Shown piece after piece: positions 40,620-52,311 of a stretch of DNA of 64,000 nucleotides. Position 1 is the first letter of the stretch. Every line of letters starts with the position of its first letter. Made by a program: the position numbers and the translations under genes. The notes beneath the pieces are model-generated. The model saw only the letters and a list, made by a program, of their open reading frames with translations. It had not been told where the DNA came from and did no database searches. This stretch comes from Sediminicoccus rosea (GTDB taxonomy: Bacteria; Pseudomonadota; Alphaproteobacteria; Acetobacterales; Acetobacteraceae): the NCBI RefSeq assembly GCF_033547095.1, contig NZ_CP137852.1, positions 3,217,501 through 3,281,500 on the forward strand. Direction: 5' to 3'.

Positions 40620-40726
40620 GTTCGTGATCCTCTGGTGGGCTGCATGTAGCGCAGGGCCACCGGGCGGGAAACGGGGCCGGCTTCCCCTGGCATTCGGCCA
40701 GGCGGCACCCTATGTTGGTCCTGTCA

Positions 40727-41019
40727 GAGGCGGCTTGCCGCCCCCGACTATGGCGATAAACGCAGCGTGGCATAAACGTTACGGACCCGGGGGCAGTGCC
40801 CGGCGTCTCCACCACTCCAACCTTCCTTGTCGGGAAGCGTGGCACGGGGACGAAACAGGCTCGACGTGCGTGGTAAAGACGCTGCTTTTGCCCGGCATGG
40901 TACCGGCGTTATCGGACCAAATCACAAGTGCCAACGACAATGTCCGCGAGGACATGGCGCTCGCTGCCTAGGAATAGGTAAGCGCGGTTCGGGGGGCACC
41001 GGGCAACAGAAGCCCCCCA
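40727..41019 (+). ncRNA. ssrA: Transfer-messenger RNA, circularly permuted two-piece form
   Basis: The acceptor piece comes first and ends GTCTCCACCA at 40814, with the alphaproteobacterial T-arm variant CCGGGGGCAGTGCCCGG. The coding piece starts GGGGACG at 40846, whose seven bases pair with CGTCTCC of the acceptor end (one G-U). A second inter-piece helix pairs GCAGCGT (40762-40768) with ACGCTGC (40879-40885). The tag frame at 40930-40971 reads ANDNVREDMALAA then TAG. Bases 40815-40845 would be removed during maturation. The GGGGGGC...GCCCCCC stem (40991-41017), followed by a TTTCTT tract at 41021-41026, could end the RNA. The exact 5' end is uncertain; a GGCGG-CTTG-CCGCC hairpin lies at 40729-40742. 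Confidence 0.93.
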
Positions 41020-41033
41020 CTTTCTTCATGCCC

Positions 41034-41473
41034 TCAGATGCCGGGCGCGGCCTCCGGCCGCTTGGCTTCGGAATGCTGAAGCATTCCGCCGGGCCTATTC
41101 GGCCCGGATCCTCCGAACTCCCAGCAGACTTGGATTGGCTTTTTCCGCCTTCAGATGCCGGGCGCGGCCTCCGGCCGCTTGGCTTCGGAATGCTGAAGCA
41201 TTCCGCCGGGCCTATTCGGCCCGGATCCTCCGAACTCCCAGCAGACTTGGATTGGCTTTTTCCGCCTTCAGATGCCGGGCGCGGCCTCCGGCCGCTTGGC
41301 TTCGGAATGCTGAAGCATTCCGCCGGGCCTATTCGGCCCGGATCCTCCGAACTCCCAGCAGACTTGGGTTGGTCTTCGCCGCCCTCAGACGCCAACAGCG
41401 GCCCCCGGCCGCTTGGCTTCGGAATGCTGGAGCATTCCGCCGGGCCTATTGGGCCCGGATTCTCGGGACGCGC
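41034..41473. repeat. 117-bp tandem repeat array, four units, each with three perfect hairpins
   Basis: Units start at 41034, 41151, 41268 and 41385, with an exact 117-base period. Units 1 and 2 look identical; unit 3 differs at its 3' end and unit 4 is diverged and cut short. Every unit has GCGGCC-TCC-GGCCGC, GGAATGC-TGAA-GCATTCC and CCGGGCC-TATTC-GGCCCGG within about 61 bases, then a 50-base unstructured linker ending TTTTTCCGCCT. In unit 4 the loops change (CCC, TGGA, TATTG) but all three stems stay intact. The array starts 14 bases after the tmRNA end and lies before a convergent dehydrogenase gene. No direct spacer structure like CRISPR is present. Confidence 0.95.
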
Positions 41474-51431: not shown

Positions 51432-52147
51432 GCAAGCCCACTGCCCTCGTCATCTCCGCCCATTCGGCCGATTTCGTCTGGCGCGCCGGCGGCGCCATCG
51501 CACTGCACGCCGCCGCCGGCTTCGAGGTGACGGTGGTCTGCCTTTCCTATGGCGAGCGCGGCGAGAGTGCGAAGCTCTGGCGCCAGCCCGGCATGACGCT
51601 CGAGCGCGTGAAGACCGAGCGCCAGAAGGAGGCCGAGGCCGCGGCGAAGGTGCTCGGCGTGCATGACCTCCAGTTCTGGGACCTGGGCGACTACCCAATC
51701 ACGCTGAACCAGCAGAGCCTGTTCCGCATGGTGGATGTGATGCGGGCCATCCACCCGAAATTCATCCTCACCCACTCCAAGGAGGATCTCTACAACTGGG
51801 ACCACCCGGCGGTGACGGATTTCGCGCAGCATGCCCGCATCACAGCGCAGGCGCATGGCCACAATCCAGGCCAGAAAGTGTTGGGCGCGCCGCCCGTCTT
51901 CCTCTTCGAGCCGCACCAGCCCGAGCAATGCAACTGGAAGCCGGACGTGCTGCTGGATATCGGGCCCGTCTGGGCGCAGAAGCGCGCCGCCATCGAGTGC
52001 ATGGCTGGTCAGGAACACCTCTGGGAATACTACACCCGCGTGGCGCAGCAGCGCGGCGCCCAGGCTGCCCGCAACAGCGACAAGTCCATCACCTGGGGCG
52101 AGGGCTATGCCAGCGTCTTCCCGCACGTGGTGGAGCGGCTTGTCTGA
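51428..52147 (+). CDS. PIG-L/LmbE family protein, probable 4-oxalomesaconate hydratase (GalB-like)
   Basis: A 239-residue PIG-L fold protein. It starts SKPTALVISAHSADFVWRAG, with H12 and D15 as zinc ligands in AHSAD (AHPDD in deacetylases), then TVVCLSYGERGESAKLW and THSKEDLYNWDHPAVTD. This variant matches, from memory, GalB of Pseudomonas putida, the PIG-L-type hydratase of the gallate/protocatechuate 4,5-cleavage route. Context with an extradiol dioxygenase and a dihydroxyphthalate-decarboxylase-like gene supports it. The TGA overlaps the ATG of the 54-residue repeat frame. Confidence 0.8.
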   Translation: MSKPTALVISAHSADFVWRAGGAIALHAAAGFEVTVVCLSYGERGESAKLWRQPGMTLERVKTERQKEAEAAAKVLGVHDLQFWDLGDYPITLNQQSLFRMVDVMRAIHPKFILTHSKEDLYNWDHPAVTDFAQHARITAQAHGHNPGQKVLGAPPVFLFEPHQPEQCNWKPDVLLDIGPVWAQKRAAIECMAGQEHLWEYYTRVAQQRGAQAARNSDKSITWGEGYASVFPHVVERLV

Positions 52148-52303
52148 TGCCGGACCGATTCACGCCGCGGCAAAGCCGCCGCGACGATCGGGCCGGTTTG
52201 ATGCCGGACCGATTCACGCCGCGGCAAAGCCGCCGCGACGATCGGGCCGGTTTGATGCCGGACCGATTCACGCCGCGGCAAAGCCGCCGCGACGATCGGG
52301 CCG
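52147..52303. repeat. 54-bp palindromic tandem repeat, three units
   Basis: Units start at 52147, 52201 and 52255 with an exact 54-base period; they look identical except that the third ends GGGGCG in place of GGTTTG. Each unit is a long imperfect palindrome, CCGGACCGAT at one side and ATCGGGCCGG at the other, with an inner GCGGC-AAA-GCCGC hairpin. Across unit junctions ATCGGGCCGG-TTTGATG-CCGGACCGAT can also pair. The array fills the space between two co-directional genes exactly. Confidence 0.95.
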
Positions 52304-52311
52304 GGGCGTGA
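52147..52311 (+). CDS. Putative 54-residue repeat-encoded peptide bridging two genes
   Basis: The frame starts ATG 52147, sharing one base with the galB-like TGA (TGATG), and ends TGA 52309-52311, overlapping the GTG start of the decarboxylase-like gene (GTGA). The product would be three copies of MPDRFTPRQSRRDDRAGL, the last ending AGA. It is Arg/Asp-rich with no signal or membrane segment. There is no independent ribosome-binding site beyond the end of the galB-like gene. It may serve only to carry ribosomes across the repeat; whether a stable peptide forms is unknown. Confidence 0.4.
   Translation: MPDRFTPRQSRRDDRAGLMPDRFTPRQSRRDDRAGLMPDRFTPRQSRRDDRAGA

Follow-up and report, generated by a model that had tools for sequence, protein, structure and literature searches.

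A multi-hairpin repeat array next to the tmRNA gene of Sediminicoccus rosea and its dispersed relatives

The array downstream of the tmRNA gene

The window analysed here is a stretch of 64,000 nucleotides of the Sediminicoccus rosea genome (contig NZ_CP137852.1, positions 3,217,501 to 3,281,500), and coordinates below refer to it. On its forward strand, it carries a permuted alphaproteobacterial tmRNA gene at 40684..41021 (Rfam RF01849, alpha_tmRNA, 226.5 bits), which is the host site and lies outside the repeat element. A preliminary description of this region had placed a tandem 117-bp array about 15 bases after the tmRNA gene on the same strand. The array was readily recovered by TRF at 41030-41464, with a period of 117, 3.7 copies and 94% matches. 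Its strand is as described, and the gap, measured from the Rfam end of the tmRNA, is about 9 nt rather than 15. By ARAGORN, the tmRNA would extend to 41062, within unit 1, and not to 41021; this is probably an overshoot. At its 3' end, the array stops shortly before the stop codon (41495) of an opposite-strand gene, which we call dehydrogenase-like from reading its sequence.

All units and linkers of the array are on the forward strand. Unit 1 (41030..41110, delimited by TRF and BLAST) is a short element, referred to as type A, in which a head is followed by hairpin 1, TTGGCTTC, hairpin 2, and hairpin 3; it scores 104.9 bits with covariance model R1. RNA folding and pair counts locate its hairpin 1 at 41047..41061 (GCGGCC-TCC-GGCCGC), enclosed by an outer GCC/GGC helix with two G-T pairs, its hairpin 2 at 41070..41087 (GGAATGC-TGAA-GCATTCC), and its hairpin 3 at 41089..41107 (CCGGGCC-TATTC-GGCCCGG). 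The three hairpins per unit, as previously claimed, are visible both in the sequence and in the comparison of the units. Units 2 (41147..41227) and 3 (41264..41344), delimited by TRF, BLAST and the covariance model, are 98-99% identical to unit 1 in BLAST, and unit 4 (41381..41461; fold, BLAST and covariance model) is 89% identical to it over 84 nt. Units 1 and 2 are separated by a linker of 37 nt (41110..41146), identified from the linker survey and the T-rich flank profile, with a T-tract at 41140-41144 immediately 5' of the next head. The linkers of the array are 37 nt long and two of the three have such a T-tract, as if complete elements had been duplicated together with their leader. RNA folding gave a z-score of -2.19 for unit 1 and of -4.56 for a 117-nt stretch from unit 4.

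In the diverged unit 4, the loops had been reported to change while every stem base remained. Alignment of the units confirmed these changes (TCC/CCC, TGAA/TGGA, and TATTC/TATTG) and the identity of the stem letters, and showed that the unpaired head is altered as well, from GCCGGGCG to GCCAACAG, which had been missed. However, loop-only change does not hold as a general pattern: outside the array, the loops are kept and the stems vary.

Anatomy of the element

The units share the same order: a fixed 18-nt head, GCCCTCARRCGCCGGGCG; hairpin 1, within the outer GCC/GGC helix with its two G-T pairs; TTGGCTTCG; a second hairpin; and a last GC hairpin, usually followed by GGAT. The second hairpin is either short, with a TGAA-type loop, or long, with about 44 nt, and the two forms have the head, hairpin 1 and the last hairpin in common. 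Among the 79 copies read, a simple rule assigned 25 to the short form and 54, including a few degraded ones, to the long form. Internal linkers are exactly 13 nt in 19 of 33 cases (G000, the genome carrying the window, and G008; G001 to G020 designate the other genomes of the genus set). Clusters tend to have TCTCGGRGGG in the far flank, past their final unit. The GCCCTC of the head is matched by a GAGGG towards the far end in 8 of the 51 last units of G000 (1.5 in shuffles) and in 5 of 25 in G008, which is above shuffles but concerns a minority.

The head-first strand has the more stable fold in 63 of the 79 copies, and the two G-T pairs of the outer helix are invariant in 23 of 23 long-form copies. 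Single-sequence folds are less striking, with z-scores of -3.12, -0.88, -0.80, and -1.79 for four copies, and RNAalifold recovered part of the structure unaided. An upstream terminator hairpin was rejected as a constant part of the element: a stem of at least 8 within 55 nt upstream is present in only 3 of 57 clusters in G000, in 5 of 25 in G008, and in 56 of 124 in the set of named genomes, a number inflated by a single MAG whose copies have an additional flanking hairpin.

A dispersed family

Searching the genome of the window with the array as a DNA query yielded 47 matches. Covariance models R1, built from the short form, and R2, built from the long form, gave at least 83 and at least 97 unit matches there, respectively (E 0.001), in overlapping lists; 150 first-look candidates were scored in each. 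The genome has 44 occurrences of an exact core pattern and none of the reversed control pattern, which rules out chance hairpins. The copies are found singly and in arrays, with multi-unit clusters representing 10 of 57 in G000.

The search for relatives with a covariance model, which had been proposed, was successful, and so was the search for single copies elsewhere in the genome. The element was seen in 19 of the 21 genomes of the genus; a query including the tmRNA end matched all 21, the match in G007 and G013 being the tmRNA piece only. Beyond the genus, R1 matched 7 of 58 genomes, which represent as many further genera of the family. The exact core pattern was present in 5 of 385 genomes of the class, G000 included (reversed pattern, 0). 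In a scan of named genomes, Roseomonas, Falsiroseomonas, Neoroseomonas, Rubritepida, Roseicella, Rhodovarius and others were among the matches listed, as were MAGs labelled Micavibrio, Sphingomonadaceae, and Kiloniellales. The loci read in other genera have the head, hairpin 1 and TTGGCTTCG conserved and differ in the later hairpins. The copies of an uncultured Rhodospirillales MAG, C5coas_bin-2163 (L148, L154, L158, L166, L181, and L205), have extra hairpins beside the core, and several of them are located at the ends of contigs, as if assembly had been interrupted by the repeat. A Sphingomonadaceae MAG (L190) has a relative of the element on the minus strand at position 1433, starting about 13 nt past a tRNA gene.

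The suggestion of a palindromic element is borne out by a family of multi-hairpin palindromic repeats, and the statement that it belongs to no named family agrees with Rfam and with the literature searched. Up to E 1, the array region matched tmRNA models only in Rfam, and ten loci of relatives gave one tRNA and nothing else at the gathering score. No description of the repeat was found in the literature searched, which lacked most subscription journals, and a search for plasmid and phage homologues gave no match. The best explanation of the array is the tandem amplification of one member of this dispersed, non-coding family.

Another repeat was observed in the window at 52145-52304, where three identical hairpin units of 54 bp lie in a row, the first at the stop codon of a gene. 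With its flanks, this region has matches in 10 of the 13 genus genomes searched (best, G012, 87%), some of which perhaps reflect flanking coding DNA. It appears to be another hairpin array situated at the end of a gene.

Siting at gene boundaries

Genes were called with our own retrained codon-based finder, and the 57 clusters counted in G000 are those in the fetched loci, not every copy. In 30 of them, the distance from a preceding stop codon to the start of the cluster is at most 15 nt; another 13 lie as close to the start codon of a divergently oriented gene, 12 of these at 6-8 nt. On the far side, a stop codon lies within 15 nt in only 2 of the 57 clusters and a start codon in none, and a single cluster overlaps a predicted gene. 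Of the 24 G008 clusters with a neighbour on the head side, 11 have a stop codon and 3 a start codon within the same distance, whereas on the far side a stop codon is this close in 1 of 25 clusters and a start codon in 0. In the flank 5' of the head, positions -9 to -4 are rich in T, which accounts for 84% at -5 and -4. TTTT is found within 15 nt in 26 of 57 clusters, versus 1 of 57 further out, and the other 31 have none within 15 nt.

The head, read as its reverse complement, ends in GAGGGC, and in 12 of the 13 G000 clusters on the start side the start codon lies 6-8 nt away from this motif. However, the start of accC comes directly after GAGGGC in G003, G006, G010, G019 and G020, so we do not claim that the element donates a ribosome site.

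The spacer between accB and accC, genes named from reading the encoded sequences, could be compared in 19 genomes: the element is present in 12, with two copies in G001 and G008, missing in 5, reduced in 1, and cut by a contig end in 1. Its orientation is antisense to the operon. In G002 and G005, which have no element there, the stop and start codons overlap. The reduced element, in G016 (L325), is without hairpin 1 and the middle part, its last hairpin being fused to the head. The gene of L022 was also used as a query; it returned mainly paralogues and gave no usable site comparison.

The tmRNA site was surveyed in 14 of the 21 genomes of the genus set. Nine of them have the element (G000, G003, G004, G006, G008, G014, G017, G019, and G020) and five do not (G001, G009, G010, G012, and G013). 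A terminator-like hairpin followed by a T-tract lies between the tmRNA and the element in eight of the nine, G000 being the one without it. Four of the five sites devoid of the element have no terminator-like hairpin, and G010 has a long hairpin without a T-tract. In G003, G019 and G020, the arms of the terminator-like hairpin differ at 6-9 of 22 positions with pairing kept, including, by our own reading of the sequence, one G-T pair in G020. The tmRNA differs at 0-1 of 220 nt among the same genomes, but it is itself constrained, so this contrast exaggerates the speed of the arms. The long hairpins with divergent arms at the tmRNA site are found at loci L117/L118 (G003), L115/L116 (G019), and L120/L121 (G020).

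It had been proposed that the array is transcribed as a trailer, a decoy or a separate small RNA of the tmRNA gene. These tmRNA-specific readings are unsupported, as copies follow protein genes and tmRNA alike, and are further weakened by the relatives that have the tmRNA without the element; the survey and the gene-context counts rule out a tmRNA-specific trailer as a general account. Any effect at the tmRNA, for example on its 3'-end structure, would be secondary. The element is present or absent at the same site among relatives, at both the tmRNA and accB-accC, as in mobile repeats.

Paired changes in the stems

Across the family, the loops and linkers are conserved and the stems are variable, which is the reverse of the picture given by unit 4. 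The expectation of structure-preserving change was nevertheless well founded, as stem pairs covary across dispersed copies. In the alignment of the short form (A3), 94.3% of the cells are paired versus 83.0% after shuffling, with 58 two-sided cells versus 19.2; in that of the long form (A2), 99.7% are paired versus 87.9%, with 52 two-sided cells versus 17.6; and among ten orthologous copies at accB-accC, 98.8% are paired versus 91.7%, with 14 two-sided cells versus 5.1, all with lenient shuffles and overstated significance since the alignments include related sequences. One-sided and unpaired cells do occur in A3 and A2 (5.7% unpaired in A3). At accB-accC, a change of the outer helix is common to G008, G015, and G014.

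The comparison of G000 with G008 (88.9% identity over 39.7 kb) gives a closer view of these changes. For 16 of the 21 element pieces of G008, an element, degraded in one case (L041), is found at the matching place in G000; the remaining five have no counterpart among the G000 loci compared, which does not imply their absence from G000. The number of units differs at 7 of the 16 matched sites. The claim that the element has recently spread stands only in part: many positions are old, as these 16 sites and the 12 of 19 genomes with an element at accB-accC indicate.

Hairpin 1 was compared at 14 site pairs, with one unit each, chosen among loci already fetched. Both sides are changed in 15 of 84 pairs and one side in none, and all 15 changes are G-C/C-G flips. 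Divergence at these site pairs is 17.9% in the stems, 4.1% in the head and linker, and 9.4% in the upstream flank. In the 12 site pairs with a clean full-length flank, flank divergence is 8.1% and 12 of 72 pairs are changed, two site pairs having been set aside, one with another unit in its flank and one with a flank of only 41 nt. Among the 7 site pairs in which the stem differs, 3 also differ in loop length, compared with 1 among the 7 in which the stem is identical, and stem patches are altered while the last hairpin is constant. On average, the best identity of a unit is 88.0% at the orthologous site and 89.3% at another site, with a mean of 82.4% at other sites. As orthologous units are more alike than this mean, turnover is incomplete.

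Interpretation of the family

A single orientation relative to the T-rich tract, both senses of transcription, patchy presence and many copies point to a DNA element with a site preference. On the sequences compared, we give about an even chance to the family being a mobile-type palindromic repeat, REP/MITE-like and undescribed in the literature searched. It would be, or would have been, a non-autonomous mobile DNA that settles, always oriented the same way, at T-rich stretches; in a genome of 70% GC, these would lie mostly at stop codons, terminators and start regions. Two-arm changes without one-sided states suggest single events, either the exchange of patches or the copying of one arm by template switching. 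Patchwise exchange of hairpins between copies, by conversion or re-insertion, could produce such a matched change in one event; this step taken alone is a tentative proposal, about which we are more doubtful. A fuller version, which we consider unlikely when taken as a whole, is a RAYT-free modular family in which hairpins are exchangeable cassettes, both arms being replaced per event, so that stems outpace the flanking coding DNA yet stay paired, and in which a putative enzyme reads the head and loops on folded single strands at T-rich boundaries. Against the mobile reading, the positions are steadier (16 of 21) than expected of an active element, no transposase partner was found, and TTTT is missing from the nearest 15 nt in 31 of 57 clusters; the preference for boundaries and the conservation of the head are equally compatible with selection for a role as RNA.

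The latter possibility, a structured RNA that functions at the ends of transcripts and within operon spacers and is selected site by site for 3'-end protection, attenuation or the binding of a factor to the head and loops, seems somewhat unlikely from the sequences. The strand bias of the fold, the invariant G-T pairs, the 30 of 57 clusters beginning just past a stop codon, the old positions shared with G008 and at accB-accC, and the terminator-like hairpin with its T-tract before eight of nine copies at the tmRNA site are all consistent with it. Nevertheless, the transcribed strand is inconstant, with 13 of 57 clusters lying head-first against a divergent start and the accB-accC element lying antisense, and the element is missing at the same site in sister species. 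Moreover, selection on the RNA fold alone should be slower and leave one-sided states, and G-C/C-G flips devoid of such states are hard to reach stepwise.

The absence of one-sided changes between G000 and G008 could also be accounted for by template switching on quasi-palindromes, which copies single mutations to the other arm and requires neither exchange between copies, mobility nor selection. It fits the hairpins at the tmRNA site of G003, G019 and G020, whose arms differ and still pair. We find it improbable as an alternative, as loop length shifts with the stem in three of the seven changed site pairs, the stems of G000 are drawn from a small set, and dispersal and boundary siting are left unexplained. 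Movement of a REP family by a RAYT (Y1/HuH transposase), since lost or undetected, is equally improbable. Dispersed short palindromes at gene boundaries and in tandem clusters do resemble REP biology (PMC3733652). In contrast, the unit has no GTAG tag, and the check for a RAYT-type gene that had been proposed was negative: Y1_Tnp was found 0 times in G000 and in 1 of 21 genus genomes, in a search with positive controls in 5 of 14 cases, which leaves a RAYT-driven REP unsupported. A mobile-type repeat is thus the reading that we retain. The family offers a clean natural case, with fixed loops and stems altering in both arms, for separating selection on structure from palindrome exchange or self-templating, a point that matters wherever covariation is taken as proof of RNA function.

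Comparison with known systems

The repeat resembles intrinsic terminators by its GC hairpins at gene ends with a T-tract nearby, but its T-tract lies before the hairpins, and a scan for GC stems with a same-strand T run immediately after them gave 1 case versus 1.2 expected. It is closer to REP, BIME and REPIN sequences in being short, palindromic, extragenic, present in many copies, dispersed, and single or clustered. It differs from them by its three-hairpin unit, which measures about 81-105 nt, by the lack of a GTAG tag, and by the lack of a RAYT-type gene in its own genome. MITEs and the double-hairpin elements of fungal mitochondria are non-coding, structure-keeping and presumed mobile. 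Our repeat shares these features, the mobility being presumed here too. Terminal inverted repeats as clear as those of MITEs were not seen: the far end carries GAGGG in 8 of 51 last units, versus 1.5 in shuffles.

The CGTC-tagged REPs of Alphaproteobacteria are likewise hairpin repeats without a dedicated transposase and are reported missing in Acetobacteraceae (PMC3733652). Neither GTAG nor CGTC is present as a fixed end tag in the copies read; GACG, the complement of CGTC, is found only in some heads because two head letters vary. The present repeat would give Roseococcus and other Acetobacteraceae, for which an absence of CGTC repeats has been reported (PMC3733652), an undescribed repeat family.
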